From NCBI GenBank assembly GCA_018434945.1, contig JAHDOI010000047.1:62001-126000 (forward strand): 64,000 nt of DNA, written 5' to 3'. The notes under the pieces are model-generated. The model searched no databases, was not told the DNA's origin, and saw nothing but the letters and a program-made list of their open reading frames with translations. The first letter of the stretch is position 1. Each line of letters begins with the position of its first letter. The DNA is from Selenomonadales bacterium. GTDB taxonomy: Bacteria; Bacillota; Negativicutes; Sporomusales; UBA7701. Shown here one piece after another: positions 10,132-26,331 of the stretch. The translations under genes were made by a program, and so were the position numbers.

Positions 10132-10137
10132 GTCATT

Positions 10138-10506
10138 AAGCTAGTTTATGCCAGTTTATGTTAGGCGCTTACACGCCCCCTTCTACTCTGGGGCTTCGAA
10201 AGTAGTTGCCGCATCAGCCTCCACCCTACAGTCACCAACCCCTTAATATAATAGTTTTGCTCCTTAGCCGACATACCTAAACCTTCAGGGCATGGTATCC
10301 GGCCGATCGGTATAGCGGGAAACGGCTATGCTTCCCTTGCTTTGGAAAGGAGCAATGTTTCCGGCGGTGCGATTGTTGCGCCTATTTTCGGTTTTCCGGC
10401 CGGATGTATTGCCAAGCCTTTCCGACTTTCGACGGGCTTGGCATATTTTATTTCTCCGGCAGCGAAGCCAGAGTACCAGTGAATATAACCGCAAGGAGGA
10501 ACTGCG
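10138..10506 (+). promoter_or_regulatory. Long untranslated leader with a terminator-like hairpin
   Basis: No gene fits in this stretch. GCCAAGCC (10411-10418) pairs with GGCTTGGC (10435-10442) and is followed by ATATTTTATTT, 55 bp before the next start codon; this is the layout of an attenuator or riboswitch expression platform. Upstream are several short complementary segments, for example around TAGC/GCTA near 10310-10330. I do not recognise a known riboswitch class. Confidence 0.4.
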
Positions 10507-10803
10507 ATGATTTGGCCCGAAAACGAAAGCGCCGATTACCTTCTGAGCAACCGCGAATATATGGAAAAGGCTTTGCGGGAAGCGATCATGGTAACCCGGA
10601 ACGCCATCCGTGAAGCCAGTATGGAAAGAAACGGCTATTTATTCGAAGAATACATCCGTTTTCTCGATTCGCTGACCGGCGATCTGGCAAGGTTGTCCGA
10701 ACTTCTTCTGATTACCGAGGCGGATAAGAAGCTGCCGGCTATTTATCGGCGCCAGTATGACCGACGGCAGACACCTCCGCCACCCGCCTCAATAAAACGC
10801 TGA
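10507..10803 (+). CDS. Small conserved-looking protein of unknown function
   Basis: 98 residues, soluble, largely helical and charged (MIWPENESADYLLSNREY, then SLTGDLARLSELLLITEA), with a proline-rich tail. I do not recognise the family. The start has a strong Shine-Dalgarno sequence (GCAAGGAGGAACTGCG) directly upstream. It lies 35 bp ahead of the DUF2325 gene in the same direction and is preceded by a leader with a terminator-like hairpin, so the two genes are probably co-transcribed and controlled together. The start context and spacing make it a likely real gene; nothing can be said about its function. Confidence 0.7.
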   Translation: MIWPENESADYLLSNREYMEKALREAIMVTRNAIREASMERNGYLFEEYIRFLDSLTGDLARLSELLLITEADKKLPAIYRRQYDRRQTPPPPASIKR

Positions 10804-10838
10804 CCCCAGCAGACCACAACGGAAACGAGGATTACTTC

Positions 10839-12455: not shown

Positions 12456-12556
12456 CAGCCCCCCCGCCCCTGTTTGGCGCCGCTCAGGACGGCGAGAGGT
12501 CGCCAGCATGGGCGGCTACGACCTCAGCCGCACCGGCGAGATAATGGCCGAGACAT

Positions 12557-12593
12557 AAAAGATGCACCCGCCGGCAGGCGGGTGCATCTTTTT
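12557..12593. terminator. Bidirectional terminator between the DUF2325 gene and mop
   Basis: A 16-bp perfect stem, AAAAGATGCACCCGCC against GGCGGGTGCATCTTTT, with the 4-base loop GGCA. A-tracts and T-tracts sit on both sides, so it can stop transcription in either direction. It separates the convergent DUF2325 and molbindin genes. Confidence 0.9.
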
Positions 12594-12608
12594 CATATGG
12601 CAGTATCC

Positions 12609-12812
12609 TTACTTCATTACCATCATCTCGGTGGATTTTACCAGGGCCGTGACTTTGTCGCCCGCCTTGAGCCCCAGGTCGTCCACCGAATCGACCGTGA
12701 TCGCCGCGACCAGCTCGGTGCCCTTGAAGTCCATGACAACTTTCGCCATAACGCCGCCTTTGACAACTTCCTTAACAGTGGCTTCCAACTTGTTGCGTCC
12801 GCTGATCTTCAT
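12609..12812 (-). CDS. mop: Molbindin (Mop/TOBE-domain molybdate-binding protein)
   Basis: 67-residue single TOBE domain: MKISGRNKLEATVKEV, GGVMAKVVMDFKG, then LVAAITVDSVDDLGLKAGDKVTALVKSTEMMVMK. Free-standing Mop proteins of about 68-70 residues assemble into hexamers that bind molybdate or tungstate in the cytoplasm. They are thought to store the oxyanion or buffer it for cofactor synthesis. The size, the S-R-N motif and the G-L-K-x-G-D-K-V turn fit well. It has an AAGGAGG site just upstream, its own AT-rich promoter with a palindrome (12848-12876), and a shared terminator downstream, so it is monocistronic. Its presence suggests molybdenum or tungsten enzymes in this organism. Confidence 0.9.
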   Translation of the reverse strand: MKISGRNKLEATVKEVVKGGVMAKVVMDFKGTELVAAITVDSVDDLGLKAGDKVTALVKSTEMMVMK

Positions 12813-12847
12813 GATTTAGCCTCCTTTATAATTTGTTCCCATATAAA

Positions 12848-12876
12848 ATTATACCAAAAACTATAGTTTTATAAAG
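12848..12876 (-). promoter_or_regulatory. mop promoter with a palindromic operator candidate in the spacer
   Basis: TATAAT at 12848-12853 (minus strand) lies about 35 bp ahead of the mop start. The spacer contains a perfect 14-bp palindrome AAAACTATAGTTTT (12857-12870), and the -35 position holds only a weak CTTTAT. A regulator bound to the palindrome would block or twist the promoter; the poor -35 would also suit an activator. The regulator is not in the window. Confidence 0.5.
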
Positions 12877-13052
12877 ATAATTTCCAATATTATTTAGTTA
12901 ATCATAGGTAAATTGCCGAAATAAATTAACTATATAAACAAACATCTACCAAGTAAATGTTATGTCCGATCAAGAAACGTTGCTTCATGTTCTGTCAGGC
13001 TCTACAAAAACTTTCAAAAAAACATGCTTTGTCCGGCATATTCCCCCGCAAA

Positions 13053-13241
13053 CTAATCTTCGCCCGCTAAAGCGAGCAAAACAATACCTGCGCCAATCAT
13101 CAGCCCCGACATCCACACAAGCCACTGGACGATTCTTTCCTGTTTCGCGTCAAACTCCGCGGCAATTGCGCAAAAACAGGAGATGGCCATCATAAGTCCC
13201 GCAGGCAAAAGAAACGCTGCATAAAAAACCAGGATGTTCAT
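13053..13241 (-). CDS. Small inner-membrane protein, two transmembrane segments
   Basis: Unknown protein of 62 residues from the ATG at 13239-13241. Two hydrophobic helices (ILVFYAAFLLPAGLMMAISCF and WLVWMSGLMIGAGIVLLALA) are joined by a short charged loop (AEFDAKQERIVQ). An upstream GTG at 13277 would overlap the stop of the phosphoesterase gene and give 74 residues. I prefer the inner ATG because it opens directly on the first membrane helix and has GGGGAT upstream. It follows the phosphoesterase gene at once, so the two are probably translated from one mRNA. It may be a partner of the secreted enzyme, but only the gene order says so. Confidence 0.55.
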   Translation of the reverse strand: MNILVFYAAFLLPAGLMMAISCFCAIAAEFDAKQERIVQWLVWMSGLMIGAGIVLLALAGED

Positions 13242-13273
13242 GAAATCCCCATCCCCGGCTAAGGCGCGCCCCT

Positions 13274-14548
13274 TCACCGTTCTTTTTCGATCTGCCAGGA
13301 GTCGATCAAGTCACCACAAAGCTTGAACACCTCGACCGACAGCACGTCGCCGGCCACCTTAACGACGATATAGTTCGGCTCTTCTCTGGGGTTGTGATAT
13401 ACTTCGTGCCAGTCGCCCGCGCGCGCCTTGCCTCGCGCCTTGTCGCCACTGCGGCCGGCCGTCACGTATATCGTCCCTTCGGCCGGGCCGGCTGCAACCG
13501 CTTCGCCGTACAGCGGATACGTGCGCGCATAGACATGTTCGTGGCCACTGAAAACTATATCGACACGGTGGCGTTCGAAAATCGGCACGAAAGCCGCTTT
13601 TACGTCGTCGTTGCCGCGGGCCGTCTTGCTGTTGTAAGGCGGTTTGTGGATAAACGCCACCTTCCATCGCTTGTCCGTCGCCGCCAAATCCTTCTCCAGC
13701 CACGCTTTCTGCCTCTCCAGCATATCCGGCATGAAGCGCGCCCCTTCGCGCGCCTGGCTGTCCAGCACCACGAAATGCACTCCCCCGTAGTCGAAGGAAT
13801 ATGCCTGGCCCCTCAGCCCTTCCGGGCCGTTGGCGGGCAACTTGAAGCGCGCGGTAAACATCGTAGGCAGCGAGCGCTCGCCCCACAGCGGCGTGTAATA
13901 TTCATGGTTGCCGGTTAGCGGCATCACGGGAATAGCGTCGATTACGCCCGCAGCGGCACCAAGCCAGGCGTCCCACTGGTCATGGTCCTGACCGACCTCC
14001 ACCAGATCGCCGACAACGGTGAAAAAGGATGCATCGGCGTTTGTTTCGTAAGCCCGGCGGAGCACCGTCCGCCAGACATCATAAGTGTAGCCCTGGGTAT
14101 CGCCGAAGACGAGAAACTTGAAGGGCCGAATACCGTCCGGGGCCGTTTTGAAGCTGCGCAGCTCGCTCCAGGCGGTCTCGCCCCCCACGCGATAAATATA
14201 GCGTGTGCCGGGCTTGAGGCCGGTAATCGTGACCGAATGGATCATAACCTTTCCGCCGTCGGTCAGGAGGACTTCTCCCGTTGCAATAGCCGTAGCGGCG
14301 TTTGTGGGCAAGCCGCCTCCCGCCGTGGCTTCGGCGTATTGAACCCGGCCGGCTGGGCAGGGGGCGGATGTCTGCCACGCGATCGTCTGCGTTGTATGGG
14401 GATCGCTCGACCAGGTCAATGTCATGTGCTGCGGAGCGGACGCCGCCAGCGGCGCCGCGGAAGAAAGCACCGGCGCCAAACAAGCCAACATGATTATAAG
14501 CGGCGTTACAATTGTCCAGCCGCGGACAACCCGCTTCATCCCTAACAT
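13274..14548 (-). CDS. Secreted purple-acid-phosphatase-like metallophosphoesterase
   Basis: Exported binuclear-metal phosphoesterase, 424 residues. A signal peptide (hydrophobic to about residue 32, cut near SSAAPL) precedes an N-terminal fibronectin-like domain typical of purple acid phosphatases (about 40-130, MTLTWSSDPHTTQTIAWQTS). The calcineurin-like metal centre is complete: GDTQGYTY, VVGDLVEVG, LTGNHEYYT and a C-terminal FSGHEHVYART. It is expected to hydrolyse phosphate esters outside the inner membrane; the true substrate is unknown. The start at 14548 has GAAGAGGTGGATGA ahead of it. It is transcribed divergently from the TonB-dependent uptake operon from back-to-back promoters, with a leader of about 220 nt, and is followed by a small membrane protein gene. 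Shared control with the metal-uptake operon is an inference. Confidence 0.88.
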   Translation of the reverse strand: MLGMKRVVRGWTIVTPLIIMLACLAPVLSSAAPLAASAPQHMTLTWSSDPHTTQTIAWQTSAPCPAGRVQYAEATAGGGLPTNAATAIATGEVLLTDGGKVMIHSVTITGLKPGTRYIYRVGGETAWSELRSFKTAPDGIRPFKFLVFGDTQGYTYDVWRTVLRRAYETNADASFFTVVGDLVEVGQDHDQWDAWLGAAAGVIDAIPVMPLTGNHEYYTPLWGERSLPTMFTARFKLPANGPEGLRGQAYSFDYGGVHFVVLDSQAREGARFMPDMLERQKAWLEKDLAATDKRWKVAFIHKPPYNSKTARGNDDVKAAFVPIFERHRVDIVFSGHEHVYARTYPLYGEAVAAGPAEGTIYVTAGRSGDKARGKARAGDWHEVYHNPREEPNYIVVKVAGDVLSVEVFKLCGDLIDSWQIEKER

Positions 14549-14770
14549 TCATCCACCTCTTCACGGCAAAAGCCGCCGTTTCGCTACTGAGTCTCTGCTT
14601 ATTTCGCCGCCTCCGGCGCGTGGAAAGCACGATCGGGGATAGACAATGGTTGAAGGAGCCCGCAGACACGCAGGCTCTTTCTTATTCCTCCGTCTTTGCG
14701 TATACCTGCCCGTCGAAGCCGCCGTTCTCATTTTAAAGCAAAACCAGAATCAATCCACATCACAACTAGC
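14549..14770 (-). promoter_or_regulatory. Structured 5' leader of the phosphoesterase gene
   Basis: If transcription starts from the minus promoter at 14778-14806, the mRNA has about 220 untranslated nt. It contains three hairpins: GAGCCTGC/GCGGGCTC (14656-14677, one mismatch), a GC-rich CGCGCC/GGCGGCG region (14604-14620) and GGCGGC/GCCG just ahead of the ribosome-binding site (14566-14580). I do not recognise a riboswitch class. No gene lies in this stretch. Confidence 0.35.
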
Positions 14771-14777
14771 TAAACCA

Positions 14778-14806
14778 AACATAACACAAAATAAATTTGC
14801 AATCAA
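14778..14806 (-). promoter_or_regulatory. Promoter for the phosphoesterase gene
   Basis: On the minus strand: TTGATT (14801-14806), a 17-bp spacer, TATGTT (14778-14783). It is back to back with the plus promoter at 14815-14843; the two -35 boxes are 8 bp apart. Confidence 0.5.
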
Positions 14807-14814
14807 TGTCGTTT

Positions 14815-14843
14815 TTGTTGATTTATATTTGTTTGCATATTAT
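14815..14843 (+). promoter_or_regulatory. Promoter of the TonB-dependent uptake operon
   Basis: TTGTTG (14815-14820), a 17-bp spacer, TATTAT (14838-14843), in an AT-rich island. The inverted repeat AATCAA (14801-14806) and TTGATT (14818-14823) spans the -35 boxes of both divergent promoters and could be a shared operator. It does not look like a classical Fur box. The leader to 14964 is about 115 nt. Confidence 0.5.
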
Positions 14844-14964
14844 TATAAAAACAGGTAACGTCTTCCACAAAAACCTCAAAGGCGGCTATTTGACGTCTGC
14901 GTCCATCGGATTGATGGCTGACAGGCAGCGCTGCCGCCGAACTCAATTACGAAGGGGGAAAAGC

Positions 14965-17016
14965 ATGTTTTTCAAGGCAATCATCCGTTTAATGGTCATT
15001 CTCGGTTTAGTTTCCCTTTTGGTTCCGGTACCCGGCCCGGCGGTAGCTCGGGCAGCCGAACCGGCCGCCACTACATTGGATGAAGTGGTCGTCACGGCTG
15101 TACCGCTGGAAAAATATCTGGTCACCACCAGCGTAATCACCGCCAAAGAAATCGCCGCCAAAGGAGCCCGTACCCTGGCGGACGCGATCGAAGACGTTCC
15201 CGGCCTGAACTTTTATCAGCACAAGAAGAATGCGCTGCAGGTCGATATTCGCGGCAGCAGCCTGTCCTACACCAAAATTTATATCGACGGGTTGCTGGTC
15301 AACCCGCTGTCTAAGGTCGGCGGCTCCGGCTCGGTAGACCTGAACATGTTCCCGGTCGATAATATCGCCAAGATCGAGATTATCAAGGGGCCGGCGCCGG
15401 TCATTTACGGCACCGACGCCATCGGCGGCATAATTCTTATTACAACGAAAAGCGGCAAAGACAAGCCCGGTGGCAGCATTTCGCTTGTCGGCGGCTCTTT
15501 CAAAACCTTCAACGGCTCGCTGGGTTACGGCGGCGGCGACGCCAAGTTCAACTACTACTTCAACGCCGGCTCGACCCATACCGACGGCTACCGGGACAGC
15601 GGCGCGCGGAGCAAATACATAAACGCGAAACTGAACTGGAAATTGCCGGACGGAGCCGCGCTCTCCTTCATGGGCAGCTATTCGCTCACCGACAAGGACT
15701 GTCTGAACGCCATCGACCCGGTCGACGGCCATATCATTTCTTCGAAAAGCGGTTTTTGGGCCGGGCTCAACAACTGGGAGTTCCGCAACTGGGAACGGAC
15801 CAGCCTGGCGCTCGACTACGGCAAGAAACTCAACGACAAGCTCGATGTCGACGTAAAAGCGTACCGCTTCACCGAAAGCCAGGAGCTGTGGGCGGACGGC
15901 AGGCGCTATGACCCGGCAGCGGCGACGCCGAACGGCAGCGGCATCGTGAACGGCAACACTAAGGACGTCGGCTACAGCACCCTTCGGTGGAATAAGAGCC
16001 CCTGGGAAAGCACCATGAACGGCATGGAACTGCAGAGCAACTGGAAGCTGGACGGCAAACATACGCTGACCTTCGGCGCGCTTTACAACGACCTCGACTG
16101 GAAGAACTCGGCGTCTGTCGATCCCGTCAACGACCCTTATAACCCCGACAACCTCAAGTGGAAACTGCTCAACAACAAGCGCTACGGCTACTATATTCAG
16201 GACAACTTCTCACTCAGTGCCAAGACGATGCTCACCGTCGGTGTCAGGTACGACGTAAATGAAGTGAAGAGCCAGGACAGCGGCGCGAAGAAAGGGTCGG
16301 CGTACAGCCCGGTTGTCAATGTGGTGCACCAGTTAGACAGCCGCGACACGATCCGCGCCTCCTACGGGAGGACGCTCAGCTTTCCCACCGCAACCCAGCT
16401 TTACGGCACCTATGGCTCGGCCGACCTGAAGCCGGAAAGGTCCACCAACTACGAGCTCGGCTTCAAACGGGTTTTCGACAAAAAAACAACGGGCGATATC
16501 GCTTTTTTCCAAAACGACATCACCGACCGCATCGATACCGACGCGAACAGAAATTATTACAACGCCACCTGGGCCAAAGTCAAGGGCATCGAGCTGGAAG
16601 TCACGAAAAAGCACACCGACCGGTGGAGCAGTTTCGTCAATTACACCTATCTGGACACCGCGTCACAAAAAACCAACGGTTCGGTCACGGAACTGACCTA
16701 CGCGCCGCGGCACCACATTAACTACGGCCTGAGCTACAAAGCCGACAAGGGCTACACCTTCAGCCTGACCGGCCACTGGGTAGACAGGCGCTATACCGGC
16801 GACGACGGCTCCGCAAAAGACACCCGCACCGGGTCGTACATCTACGGCTATCTGCCTGCCTACAACACGGTGGATCTGAAAGTCAGCCGCCAGGTGAACG
16901 CCAATCTGGACTGGTACGTCAAAGTCTACAACCTTTTCGACCGCGACTATGCCAACGCTCTGTTCTATCCTGCCTCCAGCCGCACCTTCATCACCGGCGT
17001 AAATTACAAATTGTAA
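14965..17016 (+). CDS. TonB-dependent outer-membrane receptor
   Basis: Gated outer-membrane receptor for a large or scarce nutrient, most likely a metal chelate; 683 residues. I use the ATG at 14965 because GAAGGGGGAAAAGC precedes it. A signal peptide (MFFKAIIRLMVILGLVSLL, cut near AVARA) is followed by a TonB box (LDEVVVTA) and a plug domain (about 40-150: GARTLADAIEDVPGLNF, ISIIKGPAPVIYG-like EIIKGPAPVIYGTDAIGG). A 22-strand barrel ends in RTFITGVNYKL. The layout resembles colicin I/FepA/BtuB-type receptors. It is the first gene of a twelve-gene operon that also codes for its own TonB, ExbB and ExbD, a binding protein and an ABC transporter. No cobalamin riboswitch precedes it, so vitamin B12 is not the obvious substrate. 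Confidence 0.93.
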   Translation: MFFKAIIRLMVILGLVSLLVPVPGPAVARAAEPAATTLDEVVVTAVPLEKYLVTTSVITAKEIAAKGARTLADAIEDVPGLNFYQHKKNALQVDIRGSSLSYTKIYIDGLLVNPLSKVGGSGSVDLNMFPVDNIAKIEIIKGPAPVIYGTDAIGGIILITTKSGKDKPGGSISLVGGSFKTFNGSLGYGGGDAKFNYYFNAGSTHTDGYRDSGARSKYINAKLNWKLPDGAALSFMGSYSLTDKDCLNAIDPVDGHIISSKSGFWAGLNNWEFRNWERTSLALDYGKKLNDKLDVDVKAYRFTESQELWADGRRYDPAAATPNGSGIVNGNTKDVGYSTLRWNKSPWESTMNGMELQSNWKLDGKHTLTFGALYNDLDWKNSASVDPVNDPYNPDNLKWKLLNNKRYGYYIQDNFSLSAKTMLTVGVRYDVNEVKSQDSGAKKGSAYSPVVNVVHQLDSRDTIRASYGRTLSFPTATQLYGTYGSADLKPERSTNYELGFKRVFDKKTTGDIAFFQNDITDRIDTDANRNYYNATWAKVKGIELEVTKKHTDRWSSFVNYTYLDTASQKTNGSVTELTYAPRHHINYGLSYKADKGYTFSLTGHWVDRRYTGDDGSAKDTRTGSYIYGYLPAYNTVDLKVSRQVNANLDWYVKVYNLFDRDYANALFYPASSRTFITGVNYKL

Positions 17017-17040
17017 TGATTTAAATCGAAGGAAAAAGCG

Positions 17041-18144
17041 ATGAAAACACCACGCCTCTTCTGGCTTCTCCTGCTCGTTGCCCTGTCGCTGACCCTCCCC
17101 GGCTGCGGCAGCGAGCAGGCCAAGCCCCCTTTGGCGCCGACCAACCCGGGCGACCGGATCGTTGCTGACATGGCTGGCCGCAATGTTGTTCTGCCGGCCA
17201 CGATCAAAAAAGTATACGCCGTATCGCCGGTGGAAACGGTGCTGCTTTATACCCTGGCCCCCGACCTCCAGGCCGGCTGGAGCTATCACATGGCCGGCAA
17301 GGAGAATCTCTTCATCCTGCCGGAGTACCGGAACCTGCCCGTCCTGGGAGCCTGGACATCCTTCAGCGGCACCGCCAGCGTCGAGGAAATCCTCAAGATC
17401 AGGCCAGACCTCATCCTGATGGCCAAAGCGATCGGCCCGGCGGCACATACTCTTGCCGATGAAATCCAGCAGCTTACCAAGATACCGGTCTTCATCGTCG
17501 ACGGCACGTTAACCGGCATGGAACAAGCTTACCTTTATGCAGGCCGGGCGCTGGGCCGCGAGGAGCGCGCCGCCCGCTTGTCCGCCTACTGTCGCGAGAC
17601 GATCGCTATGATCGGGGACAAAAAACCGCTGCTGACCAGCCGCAAACCGGTGACCGTCTACTACGCCGAAGGGGCGAAGGGGCTGGAAACCGAGCCGAGC
17701 GGCTCCTGGCACGCCGAAATCATTGAATTTGTCGGTGGCGTCAACGTGGCCGGCGTCAACCTCCCCAAGGGCGGCACCCTGGGCCGCAGCCCCGTGTCGC
17801 TTGAACAGGTCCTGCTATGGAACCCCGAGGTCATCCTGATCTCCTACTTCCACGACAGCGAAAAAAGTAGCTTCGCGCAGATCATGGGCGCCGCCGACTG
17901 GCGCGATATCCGCGCCGTGCAGGACCGGCGGGTCTACGAGATTCCCCACTACCCGTTCAACTGGTTCGACCGCCCGCCCTCGGTAAACCGCCTCATCGGC
18001 ATCAGATGGCTCGCCAACCTCCTCTATCCGGACGTATACCCACTTGATCTGCGGGCCGAAGTCAAAAAGTTTTATGCGCTCTTCTACCACTATCAGCTTA
18101 CCGAGGAGGAAACGGACCAGCTGCTGCGCCGCTCGCAGCGCTAG
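17041..18144 (+). CDS. ABC-transporter substrate-binding lipoprotein (BtuF/FepB-type)
   Basis: Periplasmic binding protein for a metal chelate, 367 residues, anchored as a lipoprotein: the signal peptide ends in LTLPGC, with Cys near residue 22 as lipidation site. The PF01497-type fold is shown by the opening strand DRIVADMAGRNVVLPATIKKVYAV, the middle helix and loop VEEILKIRPDLILMAKA, and the late motif LEQVLLWNPEVILISYF. It follows the receptor by 24 bp. The permease and ATPase that complete the importer lie 4-8 kb downstream in the same operon. Siderophore, cobalamin, haem and molybdate-type ligands are all handled by this family, so the ligand cannot be told from sequence alone. Confidence 0.9.
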   Translation: MKTPRLFWLLLLVALSLTLPGCGSEQAKPPLAPTNPGDRIVADMAGRNVVLPATIKKVYAVSPVETVLLYTLAPDLQAGWSYHMAGKENLFILPEYRNLPVLGAWTSFSGTASVEEILKIRPDLILMAKAIGPAAHTLADEIQQLTKIPVFIVDGTLTGMEQAYLYAGRALGREERAARLSAYCRETIAMIGDKKPLLTSRKPVTVYYAEGAKGLETEPSGSWHAEIIEFVGGVNVAGVNLPKGGTLGRSPVSLEQVLLWNPEVILISYFHDSEKSSFAQIMGAADWRDIRAVQDRRVYEIPHYPFNWFDRPPSVNRLIGIRWLANLLYPDVYPLDLRAEVKKFYALFYHYQLTEEETDQLLRRSQR

Positions 18145-18179
18145 GCCGAATGCTCTCCAAGGCCACAAGGGGTGAGAAT

Positions 18180-19187
18180 TTGAACTGCAATTTCTGTGAA
18201 CGACGCTGCGACCTCAGCGACGGCAAGCTCGGCGTCTGCCGCATGTACCGTCAGGAAAACGGCGCCATCCGCGAACGCTTTCCCCATCGCTGGAGCACCT
18301 ACATGTTGTCGCGGATCGAGTCCCTGCCGTTCTACCACGCCTATCCGGGCAGCCGCAGCATGACCATCGGCACCCTGGGCTGCAACTTCGACTGCCGGTA
18401 CTGCGCCAACGGCTTTATCGCCAAAGCGGAGCCGGAAACCCGGCTCGACACCCTGTACGAATTCACCTCCCGCGAACTGGTGGCGCTGGCCACCAAACGG
18501 GGCTGCCATAATATCGTTTTCAACGTTAACGAGCCGACCGTCTCGCTGCCCTCCCTGCAGGAGCTTGCCGGCGCTGCTGCGGCCGCGGGCGTGCCGATGG
18601 GCTGCCTCACAAACGCCTACATGACCGAAGAGAGTACCGAGCTTATGGCGGGAATCTTTTCCTTCATGAACATCAGCCTCAAGGGCCTGTCAGCCGACTT
18701 CTGCCGGCAGTACCTCGGCATCGCCGATGCCTCGCCGGTACTGCGCAACATTCGCCAACTGGCGGCAACCACCCACCTTGAGATCACCACACCGATCATC
18801 CAGTCGGTAAACGACGGCGATATCGACCAAATAGCCGAATTTATCGCCAGCGTCGATCCGCAAATCCCCTGGCACGTGTTCCGCCTGCTGCCGGAGCACA
18901 AGATGAAAGAAGCCGACTATCCGAACGTGGCGGTAATCGACAAGGCTTTGGCGAAAAGCCGCAAACTGCTGCCATACGTCTATTTCCACAACTTCGTCGG
19001 CTCCGATTGGGTCAACACCAATTGCCCGAGCTGCAAAACACCGGTAATCGAGCGTTTCAGCCTGGGCTGCGGCGGCGACCGGCTTAGCCGCTATCACTGC
19101 CTTGATAACAAATGTCCGGCTTGCGGCCGCGCCATCAACATCCACGGCCGGCTGACCGGCTGGAACTCCGGGGAGGGAACGGTATGA
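18180..19187 (+). CDS. Radical SAM protein, AmrS/PflA-like, with zinc-ribbon-like ends
   Basis: S-adenosylmethionine radical enzyme of 335 residues. An N-terminal cysteine group (CNFCERRC, later GVC) comes before the iron-sulfur motif CNFDCRYC (CxxxCxxC). Later segments NVNEPTVSLPSL and TNAYMTEESTELM fit a PFL-activase-type barrel. The C-terminal cysteines (VNTNCPSC, then VIERF, then CPACGRAI) match in layout those of the AmrS protein at 44303-45292, so the two look like paralogues. I prefer the TTG at 18180 because AAGGGGTGAG lies 5-6 bp upstream; an ATG at 18150 would add 10 residues but has no such site. The gene overlaps the next one (ATGA). The substrate is unknown; the operon suggests modification of a metal ligand or of a partner protein. 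Confidence 0.85.
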   Translation: MNCNFCERRCDLSDGKLGVCRMYRQENGAIRERFPHRWSTYMLSRIESLPFYHAYPGSRSMTIGTLGCNFDCRYCANGFIAKAEPETRLDTLYEFTSRELVALATKRGCHNIVFNVNEPTVSLPSLQELAGAAAAAGVPMGCLTNAYMTEESTELMAGIFSFMNISLKGLSADFCRQYLGIADASPVLRNIRQLAATTHLEITTPIIQSVNDGDIDQIAEFIASVDPQIPWHVFRLLPEHKMKEADYPNVAVIDKALAKSRKLLPYVYFHNFVGSDWVNTNCPSCKTPVIERFSLGCGGDRLSRYHCLDNKCPACGRAINIHGRLTGWNSGEGTV

Positions 19188-20311
19188 GCCTGGCAATCAT
19201 CGACGGCCGCGAATGGCAAAGCATCCGCGATCTCAGGACAGGCGAAAAAGCAGCCGGAACCGGCCCCTGCGCCCGCATGGTCGGCAGCGTCCTCCGCAGC
19301 CATCCCTTCCCCGGCGACATCGACGCCCAGGGCAACAAGTGGGTGACCGACACCGCCCTGGATCTGGCCGGGCGCTACGACCCGCAGTTGGCCTTTCTCA
19401 TCTACTCCCAGCAGTACTACGCCTTCCGCTTCGACGCGCCGTCCCCGGAAGAACGGGCCAGACTGATCGCCGCCGCTTTTGAGGAAGCGCACCGCTTCGC
19501 AACCGAAGGCGGCTTCTTCCCGGTGATCGTCGGCACCGGGGACATGATCCCGGCTTCCGCCTACATCGACCTCAGCCGCCTCGACGGTCTGGCGTCCGTC
19601 AGCCACTGGCTGACCCGCTATGCCGGCCTGTACCGTCCCAGTGACGCCGATATGGCCTATCTCGGCGGCCTGGCGGGGATAGAGCGGATAATCGACCGGC
19701 AGGAATATCTGGCCCTGTTCGGCGGCGCGCCTGCCGAGGGCGACCGCCTGCCAGACCATCTCGCGGTGGCCAAGGAGGGCCACTGCTTCCGATCAACGCT
19801 ACTGCGGCAGGCGCGGATGGTCCCCGCCCGCAACGAATTCGTCCCGGTCGCCAACCTGGAGACAGCCGACTCGCTCACCGACATCAGCGCCGGTGTACTG
19901 GAACTGCTGAAAACCAGCAAAGTGGCCCTCATCCTTATGGAAGGGGTCGGCCTGCGGGACTTCCCTCTTCCGGCCAGACGCTGCCGCAACGGCACAGGCT
20001 GGTTCAGCTACGAACCGTGCGAATGCCAGTACCTGACCATCAGCACCGGCCGGCACCAGGCCCTCGCCTACCCCGCCGGCTACCGGTCCTACCTTGAGGA
20101 TGACGAAGCTAAAGAATACCCCTTCTCCGGCTACTTCACCTCCATTCCCGCCGGCACGGTCGGCACCCTCGCCGCCGCCCGCAGCATCGCCGTCGGCAAC
20201 CGGAGCATGTTCATGCACACCGTGACCGGAGCCGATATCACCATCGAATGCTTCGCCCGCAACCTGTCCAACCAGGGCTGCATGGCGGTAATACACCGTC
20301 AGGACAAGTAA
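19184..20311 (+). CDS. Unknown cytoplasmic protein in the metal-uptake operon
   Basis: 375 residues, no signal peptide, no membrane segment; I do not recognise the family. Notable segments are GDIDAQGNKWVTDTALDLAG, YDPQLAFLIYSQQYYAFRF, FPVIVGTGDMIPASAYIDL, KVALILMEGVGLRDFPLPAR and a cysteine pair in YEPCECQYL. The pattern of a strand after DPQLAFL followed by an acidic loop vaguely recalls the alkaline-phosphatase/phosphodiesterase fold, but I would not rely on that. The ATG overlaps the stop of the radical SAM gene by four bases and has GGGGAGGG upstream, so the two are translationally coupled and probably act together. The FmdE gene follows after 39 bp. Confidence 0.7.
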   Translation: MSLAIIDGREWQSIRDLRTGEKAAGTGPCARMVGSVLRSHPFPGDIDAQGNKWVTDTALDLAGRYDPQLAFLIYSQQYYAFRFDAPSPEERARLIAAAFEEAHRFATEGGFFPVIVGTGDMIPASAYIDLSRLDGLASVSHWLTRYAGLYRPSDADMAYLGGLAGIERIIDRQEYLALFGGAPAEGDRLPDHLAVAKEGHCFRSTLLRQARMVPARNEFVPVANLETADSLTDISAGVLELLKTSKVALILMEGVGLRDFPLPARRCRNGTGWFSYEPCECQYLTISTGRHQALAYPAGYRSYLEDDEAKEYPFSGYFTSIPAGTVGTLAAARSIAVGNRSMFMHTVTGADITIECFARNLSNQGCMAVIHRQDK

Positions 20312-20350
20312 AAAAATTTGCTGCTGAATTTTATTAAGATACGGAGGGTT

Positions 20351-20956
20351 ATGGAAATGGAATCAGCTTATCCGGCCGATCTCAAAAAGGTGCTGGAATT
20401 TCACGGCCATATGTGCCCCGGCGTAGCCATCGGCTACCGCCTGGCGAAAGCGGCGCTGGCGGCGCTGGGCTACAGCCATCCCGACGAAGGCGACCTTGTT
20501 ACAATCGCCGAAAGCGACCGCTGCACCGTCGACCCTTTCCAGATCATCCTCGGCTGCACGCTCGGCAAAGGCAAACTGTACATAAACAGCACCGGCAAGC
20601 AAGCCTTCAGCGTCGGCTGCCGCACAAGCGGTAAAGCCGTGCGGGTCATCCAGCTGCCCTACAACTATTCGGCGGAAAGCGACGACCTGACCCGCCGGGT
20701 GATGGCCGGCCGCGTCACCGACGAGGAATACCGGCAGTATAAGACCGCCCGCGAAAGCCGGATACAGGAAATACTCACGATGCCGGCGGCGGAACTGCTC
20801 AAAGTGGAATCGGTGAGTCTCAGCCTGCCGGAAAAAGAAACCATCCACAATTCCCCCTGCTGCGCCTTCTGCGGCGAGCAGGTCATGGAACCCTGGACCC
20901 GCCTGCGCGCGGGAAAAATCGCCTGCATCCGCTGCGCCACCCCTGTGGTACGGTAG
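20351..20956 (+). CDS. FmdE-family protein with C-terminal zinc ribbon
   Basis: 201 residues. The FmdE domain (about residues 10-115) has its two cysteine motifs, FHGHMCPGVAIGYR and ESDRCTVDPFQIILGCTLGKG. A helical linker leads to a C-terminal zinc ribbon (CCAFCGE and CIRC). FmdE was named from genes beside molybdenum formylmethanofuran dehydrogenase, and its true role is unsettled; stand-alone copies are common next to metal transport genes. The start is the ATG at 20351 behind ACGGAGGGTT; an upstream in-frame start at 20318 has no ribosome-binding site. It lies 39 bp after the unknown gene and 7 bp before the methyltransferase. A metal- or ligand-binding role in handling the imported compound is an inference from context. 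Confidence 0.88.
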   Translation: MEMESAYPADLKKVLEFHGHMCPGVAIGYRLAKAALAALGYSHPDEGDLVTIAESDRCTVDPFQIILGCTLGKGKLYINSTGKQAFSVGCRTSGKAVRVIQLPYNYSAESDDLTRRVMAGRVTDEEYRQYKTARESRIQEILTMPAAELLKVESVSLSLPEKETIHNSPCCAFCGEQVMEPWTRLRAGKIACIRCATPVVR

Positions 20957-20963
20957 CCCGCCC

Positions 20964-21953
20964 ATGGAAAAGATCGGCCAAACCCTGTACCAACCCCTGG
21001 AAATAGACCCGACGCCGCTGACCGCCCTGTCGCAAAACAGGCAGATCTACGAAGCGGTGAGCGTCGCCGTCAGCCTGGGCGTATTCAAACATCTGCGGAC
21101 TCCCGGTACGCCCGGCGAGCTGGCCGGCAAGCTGGCCATCGACGGGGACGTCGCCTATTATCTGCTGAAGCTGCTGGCACACGCCGGTTGCCTGACGGAA
21201 GACCGCGGCAAATTCAGCGCCACTCCGCTTGCCGACGCCTACCTGCATGAAGACAGCCCCTTCTATCTGGGACACGAATTCACCCTGACCTGCGAGTATG
21301 GCCGCCAACTGCTGGCCGCTTTGTCGCCGCAGACGCCAAGAAACACGCCCGAACCGGAATGGACCAGGGAGCGCCTGAGGCAAATCGGCGTTTTCGGCAT
21401 GATGGGCTCGATCCAGAGCACGGTGGAGGCCGCGGAGCTGAGCGCCGCCCGCCGTCTGCTCGACCTGGGCGGCGGCCACGGTTTCTATAGCATCGCTTTC
21501 GCCCAGAAATATCCCCAGCTTGAAGTAACCCTCTTCGATCTGCCGCATGTCGCCTCTTACGCCGATAATTTCGTCCGCGAGTTTTCGTTGCAGCAGCGAG
21601 TTCATACCCGCGGCGGCGACTTTTTGGCCGACGACATCGGCCACGGCTTCGACGCCGTCCTGTGCGCCAACGTGCTGCACAGCAACAAGCGCGACGTATT
21701 GCTGGTGAAAATCCGCCAGGCCATAAACCCCGGCGGGCAGCTCATCATCAAAACCCGCATCGGCGACGTCGCCGACAACCTCGAAAACGCCGCCACCAAA
21801 CTGCTGTGGCAGGCCAAGGGCGGCCGAGAGCTGTTCAGCTTCGCCGAATGGCAGGGCTTCCTGGCATCCCACGGCTTCCGCAATGCGGAGCTGGCTGGCA
21901 TATCAGGCATTTACGCCACCATTATTGCGCAGGCAGGAGGCAACGATGGCTGA
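20964..21953 (+). CDS. O-methyltransferase-like protein (acetylserotonin/hydroxyneurosporene type)
   Basis: SAM-dependent methyltransferase, 329 residues. An N-terminal winged-helix dimerisation domain (about 20-100: IYEAVSVAVSLGVFKHLR, then LAGKLAIDGDVAYYLLKLLAHAGCL) precedes a Rossmann-type catalytic domain with the SAM-binding motif LLDLGGGHGFYS (about 162-173), an acidic end of strand 2 (LFDLPHVAS) and FDAVLCANVLHSN. Plant-type small-molecule O-methyltransferases share this plan, so a small organic compound, not RNA, is the likely substrate. It begins 7 bp after fmdE and overlaps the permease gene by 8 bp. In a metal-uptake operon it could methylate a chelator or act during breakdown of the imported complex; neither is shown by the sequence. 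Confidence 0.85.
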   Translation: MEKIGQTLYQPLEIDPTPLTALSQNRQIYEAVSVAVSLGVFKHLRTPGTPGELAGKLAIDGDVAYYLLKLLAHAGCLTEDRGKFSATPLADAYLHEDSPFYLGHEFTLTCEYGRQLLAALSPQTPRNTPEPEWTRERLRQIGVFGMMGSIQSTVEAAELSAARRLLDLGGGHGFYSIAFAQKYPQLEVTLFDLPHVASYADNFVREFSLQQRVHTRGGDFLADDIGHGFDAVLCANVLHSNKRDVLLVKIRQAINPGGQLIIKTRIGDVADNLENAATKLLWQAKGGRELFSFAEWQGFLASHGFRNAELAGISGIYATIIAQAGGNDG

Positions 21954-23007
21954 CGAAAATAACCCGGCAGTCCTGCAAAAAACGCCGCTATGTCTGCGCT
22001 GGCGTACCGGCGACCTGGTGCTGCCGGCGATGGCCGTCATCCTGTTGGCCGTCTTCGCAGGCTCCTTTCTCGTCGGCCGCTTTCCCGTGTCTCCGGAAAC
22101 GGTGCTGATGATGCTGACGGCCAAAGTTGCCGGCCTGCCGCAAACCTGGCCGAACAGCCTGGAAACCGTCGTATTCAAGGTGCGGCTGCCGCGGATACTG
22201 GCGGCCATCCTCGTTGGGGCGGCGCTGTCGGCCGCGGGGGCGGCCTATCAGAACCTGTTCCGCAACCCCCTGATGGCTCCGGAGATGCTGGGCGCAACCT
22301 GGGGCGCGGCTTTCGGCGCCGTTCTCGGCATGGTATTTCGCCTGCCCTGGCTGGCGATGGAACTCACAGCCTTCGTTTTTGGCCTGCTGGCGGTGGTATG
22401 CACCGTCGGCATCAATCTGCGGTTCGGCAGCAGGCACGCCATCACCCTCGTGCTGGCCGGCATCGTTGTCTCGGCCTTCTTCCAGTCGGCCACCTCGGCC
22501 CTGAAATATCTGGCCGACCCTATGGATACGCTGCCGGCCCTTACCTTCTGGCTCATGGGCGGCTTATCGAAGGTCAGCCTCCAGGACGTCGCCTGGACGG
22601 TGCTGCCGGTTGTCGTCCCGGCCGCCATTCTCTACCGGGTGCGCTGGCGGATCAACGTTCTCAGCGTCGGCGAGGAGGAAGCGCAAACCCTGGGCGTCGA
22701 CGTACGGCGCACCCGGATCCTTGTGCTGATCTGCGCCACCCTCATGACGGCGGCGGTCGTCAGCATCAGCGGCATCATCCATTGGGTCGGGCTGCTCATC
22801 CCCCACCTGGCCCGCATGCTGGTCGGGGCCGATTTCTCGCGGGTGCTGCCCGCCTCCATGCTGCTCGGCGGCACCTACATGCTGGTCATGGATAACCTCA
22901 GCAGAAGCATCGCCTCGATCGAGATCCAGGTAGGAATACTCACGGCTCTGATCGGCGCCCCCTTCTTCGTCTTCCTGCTGGCCAAGGCCAAAAAAGGCTG
23001 GGCCTGA
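21946..23007 (+). CDS. FecCD-family ABC transporter permease
   Basis: Inner-membrane permease for iron-siderophore/cobalamin-type chelates, 353 residues, about ten membrane helices. Family segments are PRILAAILVGAALSAAGAAY, QNLFRNPLMAPEMLGATWGA, TFWLMGGLSKVS and, near the end, HWVGLLIPHLARMLVG, which includes the loop that contacts the ATPase. The start at 21946 has CAGGAGGCAACG ahead and overlaps the methyltransferase stop by 8 bp, so they are coupled. A single permease gene means a homodimeric channel, as in BtuC. Partners are the lipoprotein at 17041 and the ATPase at 25549. Confidence 0.93.
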   Translation: MADENNPAVLQKTPLCLRWRTGDLVLPAMAVILLAVFAGSFLVGRFPVSPETVLMMLTAKVAGLPQTWPNSLETVVFKVRLPRILAAILVGAALSAAGAAYQNLFRNPLMAPEMLGATWGAAFGAVLGMVFRLPWLAMELTAFVFGLLAVVCTVGINLRFGSRHAITLVLAGIVVSAFFQSATSALKYLADPMDTLPALTFWLMGGLSKVSLQDVAWTVLPVVVPAAILYRVRWRINVLSVGEEEAQTLGVDVRRTRILVLICATLMTAAVVSISGIIHWVGLLIPHLARMLVGADFSRVLPASMLLGGTYMLVMDNLSRSIASIEIQVGILTALIGAPFFVFLLAKAKKGWA

Positions 23008-23052: not shown

Positions 23053-23883
23053 GTGAACGACGTTTTTAACGAAACCATTGATATCAGGCCGGTAGGCCAT
23101 GTGGAAAGCCATTGCGGCAATCCCGAAGCCATGCCGCTGGGCGGCCGGCAGGCCGTCATCCGCCTAAGGCCGGACTATGAGCCGGCGCTGCTGCGCATCC
23201 GCGAGCACAGCCACTTATGGATCCTCACCTGGTTTCACCAGACCAAGCGCTCGATACTTAGGGTGCGGCCGTCCAAAGTCAACCCCGATATGCCCGAATA
23301 CGGAGTTTTTTCCCTTCGCAGCGCCGCCCGCCCCAATCCCATCGCCCTGACGCTCGTGACGCTCTACAAAGTCGACGGCTGCGACCTCTACGTCTCCGGG
23401 CTGGATGCGGTCGACGGCACCCCGGTACTGGATATCAAGCCGTATTTTGAAGAAGATATCGTCTTTTCGCCGCTCACCCCCTATATCCCGCCGAGCGACC
23501 GCGATACGCAGGCCCGGCTTCTTCGCGGCCAGGCGCTGACCCATCACGGCGAGGCGTGCCTCGGCCTGGAGCTTGGCGTCCGAATGGCCTTGCTGGCTGA
23601 AGAGCGTTTCGGCCAGCTCCAGTCCCCCGCGCTCGCCATATCGGTCGCCGGCGACCCATGCCTGGCCGATGTCCTCCAGGGACTGACGCGGGCCCGGCTG
23701 GCCAACCCGCCCCGCTTCAGCTTTACCGCGTCAGAGGGCGCAAACGTCGTTACGTGGTCGAAAAACGGCCGGACTTTGCGACTCAGCGTCCGGCCGGGCG
23801 TAGATCTGGCCCAGGCGCAGTCGGCGTCGCCGGCCGAGATTTTCCTGCTGGATGAAAACATCACACCTGGCAGCGGGAGGTGA
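23053..23883 (+). CDS. Fusion of a TsaA/TrmO-type domain to an FmdE-like domain
   Basis: 276 residues from GTG at 23053 (GGGGAG upstream). Residues about 8-150 are a TsaA (YaeB/TrmO) domain: IRPVGHVESHCGNPEAMPLG, LWILTWFHQTKRSILRVRP, GVFSLRSAARPNPIALT, DGTPVLDIKPYFEED. TrmO uses SAM to methylate t6A37 of tRNA; many TsaA proteins have no assigned role. Residues about 155-265 look like a second FmdE domain. THHGEACLGLELGVRMA aligns with FHGHMCPGVAIGYRLA of the fmdE gene 2 kb upstream, and AGDPCLADVLQGLTRARL aligns with ESDRCTVDPFQIILGCTL, both with their cysteines kept. The alignment is by eye. Placed between permease and exbB, it more likely acts on the imported compound than on tRNA, but that is inference. 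Confidence 0.8.
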   Translation: MNDVFNETIDIRPVGHVESHCGNPEAMPLGGRQAVIRLRPDYEPALLRIREHSHLWILTWFHQTKRSILRVRPSKVNPDMPEYGVFSLRSAARPNPIALTLVTLYKVDGCDLYVSGLDAVDGTPVLDIKPYFEEDIVFSPLTPYIPPSDRDTQARLLRGQALTHHGEACLGLELGVRMALLAEERFGQLQSPALAISVAGDPCLADVLQGLTRARLANPPRFSFTASEGANVVTWSKNGRTLRLSVRPGVDLAQAQSASPAEIFLLDENITPGSGR

Positions 23884-23887
23884 CGGC

Positions 23888-24469
23888 ATGCACGATATAT
23901 TAGCAAAAGGCGGCATCGTATTATTATTGATCATCGCCTGCTCGTTCATCGCCGTGACGGTGGCCGTCCATCGCTGGTGGTTCCTGCGCTGGGCGGAAAA
24001 AGAGGACTCGGCTTTTGCGGCCGAGATGAAACAGATCACCGGCGGGACAGTGCCGGCCGGCGGCGACAGCCCGCTGGCCCGGTTATGGGCCGGCCTGCGT
24101 GACGGCAATACCAGGGCGGCGGCCGAGAGTGCCCTGCTGGACGAAAGCCTCCGCCTGGAAAGGTACCTGTACGTATTGGCGACCATCGCCACCATCTCGC
24201 CGTTGCTGGGGCTGTTGGGGACGGTTTTCGGCATGATCAAAACTTTTCAGGCTGCGGCCCTCAGTGGCGTCGGCAACCCGCAGCTGCTGGCCGAAGGCAT
24301 CGCCGAGGCGCTGTACAACACCGCAGCCGGGCTGACCGTGACCGTCTTCTGCATCGTCAGCCACAACTTCCTGCGCAACTGGGCCGACCGGCTGACACAG
24401 TCGCTGGAAGCGCGCCTGGGCGAAATGCAGGCGCTGCTGGCCGCCAGAGGTGATACCGGTGCCAAGTAA
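23888..24469 (+). CDS. exbB: ExbB (MotA/TolQ/ExbB proton channel)
   Basis: Inner-membrane subunit of the TonB energising complex, 193 residues. It has a first membrane helix near the N-terminus (GGIVLLLIIACSFIAVTVAV), a cytoplasmic middle part, and two further helices with the family segments ISPLLGLLGTVFGMIKTFQA and GIAEALYNTAAGLTVTVFCI. With ExbD it uses the proton gradient to drive TonB. The ATG at 23888 sits behind GGGAGGTGACGGC, 4 bp after the TsaA-FmdE gene. The motor is dedicated to this operon, as it is encoded with its own receptor. Confidence 0.93.
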   Translation: MHDILAKGGIVLLLIIACSFIAVTVAVHRWWFLRWAEKEDSAFAAEMKQITGGTVPAGGDSPLARLWAGLRDGNTRAAAESALLDESLRLERYLYVLATIATISPLLGLLGTVFGMIKTFQAAALSGVGNPQLLAEGIAEALYNTAAGLTVTVFCIVSHNFLRNWADRLTQSLEARLGEMQALLAARGDTGAK

Positions 24470-24857
24470 AGGGCGGCGGAAAATCGGCGTCCACATCGAC
24501 ATGACGCCAATGGTCGACGTAATGATGCTGCTGGTTATCTTCTTCATGATGTCCACGGCGTTTGTGGCCGTTTATCCCGGCTTCTCGGTCAGCCTGCCCC
24601 AGGCCGACGCCGCCAAGCAGCCGGCCGAACATGTCGCCGTCCTGGTCGCCAAAGACGGCCGGATCGCCGTGGACGGGCGCCCGGTAAGCAGAACCGAACT
24701 GGCGCCGGTTTTGAAAAGTCTCAACGGCGCCAAGACGATCGTTTCCATTCAGGCCGACAAGGAAGCAAGCCACGGGCGGGTGGTCGAAGTTATGGACGAA
24801 ATCCGCCGGGCGGGCGTAACCAGAATATCCATCGCCACCGAAGCGAAGGAGCCGTGA
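24459..24857 (+). CDS. exbD: ExbD (biopolymer transport protein)
   Basis: Partner of ExbB, 132 residues from the GTG at 24459 (AGAGGTGAT upstream); a GTG at 24450 is possible. A short basic cytoplasmic tail leads into one membrane helix, HIDMTPMVDVMMLLVIFFMM, whose Asp in VDVMM is the essential proton-binding residue of the family. The rest is the periplasmic domain, ending TRISIATEAKEP. It overlaps exbB by 11 bp, and its stop overlaps the tonB start. Confidence 0.93.
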   Translation: MPSKGRRKIGVHIDMTPMVDVMMLLVIFFMMSTAFVAVYPGFSVSLPQADAAKQPAEHVAVLVAKDGRIAVDGRPVSRTELAPVLKSLNGAKTIVSIQADKEASHGRVVEVMDEIRRAGVTRISIATEAKEP

Positions 24858-25510
24858 TGAAAGTGATCCCCAGAACATGGCTGCCGGCGGCGCTGATTTC
24901 CGCCGTAGTTCACTCCCTGCTCATCGTGGCCGTAGCTCAGGGCTTCGGCCACCAGCCGCCGCCGGAAAAAGAAAAACCGCCTATCGAAGTCGAACTAACT
25001 AGAACATTGCCGCCCCAGGCCATAATCGAAAAAAAACCGGCGTCCCCGGAGACGCGCAAGACCGACGACCGTGTCACCCCGGCCGAACGCACTCCCGCCG
25101 TAACCGCCGTTCCCGAACAGCCGGTCAAGTTTACGCCCGGGCCGCCGGTTACCGCCGGCCTGGTCGGTAACGAGGCCGTGGCCGCACCGAGCGGCGGCAC
25201 CAGCCCTAAAGGCATCACCGGCGTCGCCCCGGCCATACCCGCCCAACGGCTGGCCGTCGTGTACGCGCCGGCCCCAGAATATCCGGCCGACGCCCGCTCC
25301 CAACGCTGGGAGGGCACGGTGCGAATAAGCGTACTGGTCGACGAAAACGGCCGGGTTCAGGACGCGCGGGTGGCCGTCAGCTCCGGCAGCAGTTCGCTCG
25401 ACCAGGCCGCGCTCGACTGCCTTCGCACCTGGCGCTTCCGGCCCTATCATCAGGACGGGCGGACAATCGCTGCGCGGGCAACCGTCCCGGTGGTTTTCAG
25501 GCTGGATTAA
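24857..25510 (+). CDS. tonB: TonB
   Basis: Energy-transducing link between the inner-membrane motor and the receptor, 217 residues. It has an N-terminal membrane anchor (WLPAALISAVVHSLLIVAVA) with the conserved His, and a Pro/Glu/Lys-rich spacer through about residue 125. The C-terminal TonB domain (about 135-217) shows YPADARSQRWEGTVRISVLV, the motif SSGSSSLDQAALDCLRTWRF and a final PVVFRLD strand. The ATG at 24857 shares one base with the exbD stop (TGATG); a GTG one codon earlier is possible. It is short compared with E. coli TonB (239). Confidence 0.93.
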   Translation: MKVIPRTWLPAALISAVVHSLLIVAVAQGFGHQPPPEKEKPPIEVELTRTLPPQAIIEKKPASPETRKTDDRVTPAERTPAVTAVPEQPVKFTPGPPVTAGLVGNEAVAAPSGGTSPKGITGVAPAIPAQRLAVVYAPAPEYPADARSQRWEGTVRISVLVDENGRVQDARVAVSSGSSSLDQAALDCLRTWRFRPYHQDGRTIAARATVPVVFRLD

Positions 25511-25548: not shown

Positions 25549-26331
25549 ATGCTGCAAGTAAATAGCATAAGTTTCGGGTATTCAGCTTCATGCGACCTGT
25601 TGGCCGACCTGTCGTTCACCGTCAATGACGGCGACATCGTCTGCCTCCTCGGGCCGAACGGCGCCGGCAAAACAACGCTGCTTCGCTGCCTGCTGGGGAT
25701 ATCCAAGGTACACGCCGGCAGCATCCGAATGAAGGGACGCGAAATCGCCGCGGTGTCTGCGGCCGAGCTGTCGCGCTGGATAGCCTATGTGCCGCAGGCG
25801 ACCGATATCGTGTTTCCCTACCGGGTATTGGACATGGTGGTCATGGGCCGCACCCCCCACCTGGGGTTTACCGCCGTTCCCGCCAAGGCCGATATGGCTA
25901 TCGCCCGGGAAGCTTTGCGCGAACTGGGTATCGCCCACCTGGCGGATTGCCTGTTCAGCGAAATCAGCGGCGGCGAGCGCCAGCTGACCCTCATCGCCCG
26001 GGCCATAACCCAGCAGGCCGGCATGCTAATCATGGACGAGCCGACCTCAAGCCTCGACTACGGCAACCAGGTACGCATCCTCAAAGTCATCAGCCACCTG
26101 GCCAGGCAGGGCTACTCCATCCTCATGACCTCCCACTTTCCCAGTCACGCCTTCATGCTGTGCAACAAGGTTCTGGTCATGAAGCGCGGCCGGATAATCG
26201 CCGCCGGCAGTCCGGAGGAAATCATGACCGAAGAAGGTCTCAGCGACTTATACGGCGCCAAAGTCAAGATCGTCGAAATCGCCGATGGCGCCGCTGAACC
26301 GGTAAAAGTATGCATCCCCCTGCTGGCCTAA
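25549..26331 (+). CDS. FecE/BtuD-type ABC transporter ATPase
   Basis: Nucleotide-binding subunit of the chelate importer, 260 residues. Walker A GPNGAGKTT (about 36-44), the Q-loop in YVPQATDIVFPY, signature SGGERQ, Walker B MLIMDEPTSSLD and the H-loop in MTSHFP are all present, so it should be active. It is the last gene of the operon, 38 bp after tonB, and serves the permease at 21946. A rho-independent terminator follows 20 bp after its stop. Confidence 0.93.
   Translation: MLQVNSISFGYSASCDLLADLSFTVNDGDIVCLLGPNGAGKTTLLRCLLGISKVHAGSIRMKGREIAAVSAAELSRWIAYVPQATDIVFPYRVLDMVVMGRTPHLGFTAVPAKADMAIAREALRELGIAHLADCLFSEISGGERQLTLIARAITQQAGMLIMDEPTSSLDYGNQVRILKVISHLARQGYSILMTSHFPSHAFMLCNKVLVMKRGRIIAAGSPEEIMTEEGLSDLYGAKVKIVEIADGAAEPVKVCIPLLA

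Follow-up and report, generated by a model that had tools for sequence, protein, structure and literature searches.

We analysed a window of 64,000 nucleotides from the genome of a Selenomonadales bacterium (assembly GCA_018434945.1, contig JAHDOI010000047.1, positions 62,001 to 126,000) and followed up the 375-amino-acid product of the open reading frame (ORF) at 19184-20311 on the forward strand, referred to here as protein X. X represents an unnamed family, absent from the Pfam and NCBIfam models, that very probably has the fold of the alkaline-phosphatase superfamily, in circularly permuted form and without its di-metal site. The family is paired with a distinct class of radical S-adenosylmethionine (SAM) enzyme and, with high confidence, sits in a molybdenum/tungsten (Mo/W) cassette; what is new is the addition of the radical SAM-X pair to a type II Mo/W uptake cassette. 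This Mo/W setting, which carries most of the answer, had gone unnoticed in a preliminary description of X. Family membership, fold, permutation, catalytic loss, radical SAM pairing and the Mo/W context of the family were established by computation.

The X ORF starts with an ATG at 19184, 3′ of the Shine-Dalgarno-like GGGGAGGGAA, and overlaps the stop codon of the radical SAM gene (TGA, 19185-19187) in an ATGA at 19184-19187, as the preliminary description had observed. It had also called X soluble, and inspection agrees, there being no signal peptide and a highest 19-residue hydropathy mean of 1.47. Relatives of X occur in 13 of 28 genomes from the same order (47-85 % identity), in 14 of 398 genomes of a Bacillota sample and in a Desulfuromonadales metagenome-assembled genome (MAG; locus L019), with none found among plasmids (tblastn) or viral contigs. 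Identities in our 26-member alignment (A2) go down to 27-29 %. Invariant and nearly invariant residues are spread along the whole of this alignment and include D7, P43-G44-D45, W53, N269, G289 and E355 in all 26 members and H345 and C356 in 25 each. On these sequence grounds X is a conserved family and more than a chance ORF. The Gly/Asp motifs pointed out earlier are retained in the family as VGxGxM and LxEGxG..F. The CxC pair (C279, C281), also pointed out there, was rejected as a conserved metal site, having cysteine in only 2 of 26 members; the well-kept cysteine is C356. Judged by titles and the beginnings of abstracts, the open-licence literature appears to hold no published account of X.

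Our locus set comprised 28 loci, one per genome (the window, L015-L028 and L045-L057). X is broken into two frames in genome G003 (L027, 9578-10656), where the cassette is otherwise well kept, reflecting either a recent loss or a sequencing error; it was entered as present in the counts. Genome G257 carries two complete copies of X within one cassette (L049, 351-4985) and G356 has additional X fragments downstream (L048, 18004-18349).

X gave no match to Pfam (E ≤ 1), NCBIfam or PDB sequences, and a profile of 14 members likewise matched no PDB sequence, three rows at E 1.4 being noise. To this extent X is, as first described, without a family; its fold could nevertheless be placed by AlphaFold, Foldseek and profile-profile comparison. 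An AlphaFold model built from 26 sequences reached a mean predicted local distance difference test (pLDDT) score of 89.7 and a predicted template modelling score of 0.92, replacing an earlier model from 14 sequences (pLDDT 72.5). Foldseek matched it to phosphonoacetate hydrolase PhnA (1ei6; E 9.7e-6, probability 1.00), and the next matches at a probability of at least 0.95 were all ENPP. VIA-align superposed X 1-243 on PhnA 136-407 (Z 10.4, root-mean-square deviation 3.5, 214 residues aligned, 20 % identity); the best 50 rows listed were PhnA, ENPP/autotaxin, related phosphodiesterase and alkaline phosphatase entries, which from their titles and general knowledge we take to be members of the superfamily. 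Some 135 residues of PhnA precede the matched part and 132 residues of X come after it, the unmatched N-terminal end of one and C-terminal end of the other suggesting a circular permutation.

Profile-profile comparison (hhalign) with 27 PF01663-type proteins from Bacillota gave a score of 82.7 (pair E 3e-10, not corrected for database size) against 15.1 for a reversed control, the N-terminal two thirds of X aligning to the C-terminal half of these proteins. The C-terminal third of X (244-375) on its own aligned to their N-terminus with a score of 30.8, compared with at most 22.1 in 120 column shuffles, placing 'KVALIxxEG' of X on 'VVLISVDG' of the superfamily. Against a tandem copy of the superfamily profile X scored 102.8 as opposed to 82.7 against a single copy, with 60 shuffled-C-terminus controls at or below 91.2. 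An initial profile-profile test using two superfamily proteins only, too thin a profile, had found no match. Permuted X found no match among PDB sequences, nor did ten permuted members in Pfam at E ≤ 10, so the homology is visible by profile and fold only. We consider it highly probable that X has the alkaline-phosphatase superfamily fold (PF01663 side), and there is a strong likelihood that it is circularly permuted. X thus shares fold and profile similarity with PhnA and ENPP and differs from them in chain order and in its catalytic positions.

Seven catalytic positions, which we take to be the metal ligands (D, D..H, DH, H) and the Thr/Ser nucleophile, are conserved in 24-26 of the 27 superfamily relatives. 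X keeps an acid at one of them, E253 at the place of the first Asp (Glu in 24 and Asp in 2 of 26 members), while the other six are replaced or gapped: the nucleophile position holds G/S/C/P/A, the D..H pair Y/F/G/H/Q and S/F/L/A/G/C, and the DH pair T/L/N/R/M and G/S, and the last His falls in a gap. The VGTGDM motif of X occupies the place of the metal-binding DH. With these positions lost X is not a canonical metallophosphatase, and its own set of conserved residues implies a predicted function of a different kind. Strong similarity to a housekeeping enzyme family foreign to radical SAM chemistry, which the preliminary description had named as evidence against its reading, was not found, the homology being remote and the catalytic residues gone.

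The radical SAM enzyme encoded directly upstream (18150-19187, forward strand) is TIGR04337-like. TIGR04337 (AmmeMemoRadiSam) is the best NCBIfam model for the partner, yet its curated cut-off of 220 bits is not reached either in the window (148.9 bits) or at L050 (173.7). On a profile built from 20 X-linked proteins, members of the X-linked class score at least 450 bits and every other match listed at most 292, and we regard the class as clearly separate from AmmeMemoSam in its sequence. The next-best score group (245-292 bits) is made up of open frames of about 600 amino acids; L019 of the Desulfuromonadales carries a second, longer AmmeMemoSam-like radical SAM ORF of 613 amino acids (10778-12619), and a second radical SAM gene in the window (44303-45292, reverse strand) scores 215 bits on the A4 profile, within the ordinary AmmeMemoSam-type range.

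Co-occurrence with this radical SAM family had been proposed as a check on X. The class was found in 15 of the 398 Bacillota genomes, including all 14 that carry X; in the fifteenth, G140, the radical SAM gene stands alone at a contig end. In the order sample of 28 genomes both genes are present in 12, G011 having the radical SAM gene only and G017 X only. Fisher P values for the pairing are 7e-25 (398 genomes) and 5e-6 (order), uncorrected for kinship. The radical SAM gene lies directly upstream of X in 26 of the 28 loci with a spacing of -26 to +33 nucleotides, including a 4-nucleotide overlap in 16 of the 28; the two non-adjacent loci are L026, without such a radical SAM gene, and L057, where it lies 3.8 kb off on the other strand. 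Co-occurrence and gene order strongly support a partnership of X with the radical SAM class. The preliminary description had suggested that X is the substrate-binding partner or the target of the radical SAM enzyme; this is supported in part, in that the partnership stands (14 of 14 genomes, adjacent in 26 of 28 loci), and within it X may be binding partner, target or a separate enzyme.

The metal setting emerges from the binding protein encoded upstream of the radical SAM gene, from the neighbours of X in related genomes and from riboswitches. HI_1472 (3psa), which we take to be MolA, ranked third among the PDB relatives for each of the four cassette binding proteins searched (E 5e-17 to 1e-31), those ranking above it being structures with an unstated ligand. 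In the available text of PMC4031551, MolA binds molybdate and tungstate. At L026 of G017 (9814-14962) X lies by two ModA genes, ModB, an ABC ATPase and a ModD-like (quinolinate phosphoribosyltransferase-type) gene; ModA and ModB lie by X in G349 (L053), WtpA in G134 (L045), and a molybdopterin oxidoreductase and an XdhC-type protein in G336. As a side observation, genes for AFOR_N aldehyde ferredoxin oxidoreductases lie on the X contig of two genomes, about 10 and 13 kb from X (G161:C25:43050-43643 and G024:C77:3171-3770).

We scanned all 28 loci for known RNA families using Rfam and found the molybdenum cofactor (Moco)/tungsten cofactor (Tuco) riboswitch RF01055 at many of them. Of the 13 X genomes outside the Negativicutes, G157 and G181 were left out (contigs of about 4 kb), and in 10 of the remaining 11 RF01055 lies within 7 kb of X, a limit chosen after the largest distance, 6.9 kb, was known, heading genes for the binding protein, permease or radical SAM enzyme. 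The exception is G356, without RF01055, while at L057 the riboswitch is on the strand opposite to X. Given the number of riboswitches per genome, the chance of such proximity is about 1e-13. The P3 stem is missing in all 11 X-linked riboswitches, including that of the window, as read from cmscan alignments for nine of the ten cassette riboswitches and the window's and by eye for L046. The P3-lacking form is tied to the tungsten cofactor in the available part of PMC2408646 (Regulski et al. 2008), and it is this form of the Moco/Tuco regulon element that the monoderm X cassettes carry; that part of the text mentions neither 'radical SAM' nor 'FmdE'.

Taken together, X is very likely part of a Mo/W cassette, and its metal is probably tungsten. 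A number of observations weigh against this reading and against an exclusive pairing with the radical SAM enzyme. P3 is also missing in 15 of 24 other riboswitches of the same genomes, so that its absence is a lean towards tungsten and not proof; P3 is present in 0 of 11 X-linked riboswitches versus 9 of 24 others (P 0.02), a weak comparison made partly by eye, with related sequences among the 24 and L081 left out. The riboswitch of the window heads other genes 9 kb off and not the X operon, and no RF01055 was found in 14500-20400 of the window at E ≤ 1. In the 13 Negativicute X genomes, that of the window among them, no detected Moco riboswitch heads the X operon (the contig of G005 being only 6.5 kb), the Sporomusa loci showed no Moco riboswitch, and the two riboswitches within 10 kb of X in G024 are both on the other strand. 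Because its own riboswitch heads other genes, the metal assignment of the window has to be drawn from its relatives and from the HI_1472-like binding protein. At each of the three monoderm loci tested the binding protein is nearer 4hn9, to which its depositors gave the name 'iron complex transport', and 4ovk than HI_1472, and Pfam and NCBIfam by themselves put the transporter nearest iron/B12 types. Genome-wide, the riboswitch occurs in 24 of 26 X genomes versus 41 of 48 controls of the same family or order and aldehyde ferredoxin oxidoreductase in 22 of 26 versus 38 of 48; X genomes are not separable from controls by either, and genome-wide presence was dropped as evidence. Finally, the genome of G017 has X without the X-linked radical SAM class and G011 has the class with X absent from the 20 kb around the gene. 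Since G017 keeps X beside mod genes without the class, the partnership is not obligate. The locus of G011 (L144, 5231-17072) carries the same cassette, with the radical SAM gene and without X; facing it are genes for a TonB receptor, DUF364/DUF4213, a CobW-type GTPase, an ABC ATPase with DUF1858, ExbD, ExbB and TonB.

The riboswitch of the window (10248-10368, forward strand; 51.6 bits) is the only Moco riboswitch detected in the genome. The two ORFs directly 3′ of it (10507-10803 and 10839-12455, forward strand) have no Pfam match, the larger also being without an NCBIfam match, and the same pair is kept behind a riboswitch at L023 (17244-19195, reverse strand). They may be Mo/W-regulated genes without family assignment.

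Within the window the cassette runs tightly packed on one strand from a TonB-dependent outer-membrane receptor (14797-17016) to an ABC-transporter ATPase of FecE/BtuD type (25549-26331). Between these lie the periplasmic Peripla_BP_2 substrate-binding protein with a lipoprotein-like start (17041-18144), the radical SAM gene and X, followed by an FmdE-domain protein (20318-20956), an O-methyltransferase (Methyltransf_2; 20964-21953), a FecCD/BtuC-type permease (21883-23007; the ORF overlaps the previous gene and the true start is probably internal), a TrmO N-terminal domain fused to an FmdE domain (23053-23883), and ExbB (23852-24469), ExbD (24450-24857) and TonB (24854-25510). As TonB machinery is present, we take the genome to be that of a diderm member of the Bacillota. 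A FecCD permease lies within 9 kb of X on the same strand in 23 of 28 loci and a TonB receptor likewise in 10 of 28, all of the latter in Negativicutes or the Desulfuromonadales MAG. Monoderm relatives have the inner-membrane part of the cassette only, and the smallest cassettes consist of the ATPase, binding protein, permease, radical SAM enzyme and X. The type II ABC transporter MolBC-A of Haemophilus influenzae shares a FecCD-type permease, a BtuD-type ATPase and an HI_1472-related binding protein with the cassette; neither a radical SAM gene nor X is described for it in the available text of PMC4031551, and neither is a TonB receptor or a Moco riboswitch. Downstream of the cassette a glmS ribozyme-riboswitch (RF00234; 28686-28843, reverse strand; 91.2 bits) lies upstream of an ORF of 609 amino acids (26826-28655, reverse strand), presumably glmS.

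The alkaline-phosphatase-type fold binds tetrahedral oxyanions. With the pocket of such a fold retained but the two-metal site and nucleophile lost, X would most likely bind tungstate/molybdate or their organic carrier. Together with the retention of X beside a molybdate importer alone in G017, this makes it a serious candidate reading, held just short of an even balance, that an imported tungsten or molybdenum species is handled in the cytosol by X and its dedicated radical SAM enzyme. For such a scheme we infer the direction of transport, the ligand of X and the chemical step. In the organism of the window the TonB receptor would bring the metal species, either an oxyanion or a chelate, across the outer membrane, and a second step involving the MolA-like binding protein, the FecCD permease and the ATPase would take it across the inner one. 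The pocket of X would bind the incoming tungstate/molybdate or organic carrier and, with the radical SAM enzyme, X would free or convert the metal species for cofactor synthesis.

The main rival, which we rate as possible but unlikely, is that the radical SAM enzyme, X and methyltransferases build or tailor a Mo/W-binding small molecule (a metallophore) that is re-imported by the TonB/FecCD system. Metal chelates are the usual cargo of FecCD and TonB systems, and methyltransferases recur near X, with an O-methyltransferase in six loci (the window, L021, L023, L024, L025 and L028) and others at L019 and L056. Proteins annotated as 'putative heavy-metal chelation' (DUF364/DUF4213), which may belong to the same metal pathway, lie near the cassettes at L018 (1393-6324), L144 (12607-13353) and, in partial form, L054 (6187-6933). 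The smallest cassettes, however, are without a recognised synthetase or peptide precursor, an exporter-like gene was seen by eye at L045 only, and the closest binding protein to have been characterised, MolA, has the oxyanion itself as its ligand according to the available text of PMC4031551.

It is rather improbable that X is itself a protein substrate of the radical SAM enzyme which, once modified, forms a metal-binding or regulatory part. The start/stop overlap, the near-perfect co-occurrence, the invariant residues and the nearly invariant C356 would all suit such a role. Known radical SAM maturases act on short precursors, though, whereas X forms a globular domain of full size whose fold is predicted with confidence, and in G017 X is well conserved in a genome that does not have the radical SAM class.

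We think it very unlikely that we are dealing with a common operon for taking up iron, heme or corrinoids, with X serving that metal. The receptor, permease and ATPase are nearest siderophore/B12 families, all below the curated equivalog cut-offs, but the Moco riboswitches, the ModA, ModB and WtpA neighbours and the HI_1472-like binding protein point elsewhere. A cobalamin/corrinoid system in particular was rejected, the Rfam scans having found no cobalamin riboswitch at X loci. Least probable of all is an active hydrolase of nucleotide pyrophosphatase/phosphodiesterase type, cutting for example an imported pterin dinucleotide, which the fold and profile similarity to the superfamily would suit and which was rejected on the loss of six of the seven catalytic positions, the first Asp being mostly Glu.

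Returning to cytosolic action on an imported metal species, we tentatively raise the further possibility, itself a minority view, that a carrier molecule for tungsten (or molybdenum) is processed in the cytosol by X and the radical SAM enzyme, which would then be the first enzymes of this kind to be recognised. Here tungsten would enter through the TonB/FecCD system as part of an organic complex or of a scavenged tungsten-pterin, which the radical SAM step and the permuted phosphatase-like fold, the latter having acquired a new active site, would then release or rebuild. If this is true, tungsten would have an uptake route comparable to those for siderophores or corrinoids. In acetogens, formate dehydrogenase and aldehyde oxidoreductases are limited by how much tungsten and molybdenum is available, and in the available part of PMC4973070 more tungstate led to more acetate and ethanol in Sporomusa ovata. 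We found no paper in the open-licence literature tying a TonB-dependent outer-membrane receptor to tungstate/molybdate, and none joining radical SAM either to FmdE and TonB, to DUF364 and molybdate, or to a Moco riboswitch and tungsten. Known Mo/W uptake proceeds by ModABC, TupABC, WtpABC and MolBC-A. The combination of a radical SAM enzyme and an orphan protein, with a TonB receptor in diderms, suggests a chemically different step in Mo/W acquisition, and the unnamed X family gains a fold, a partner and a metal.

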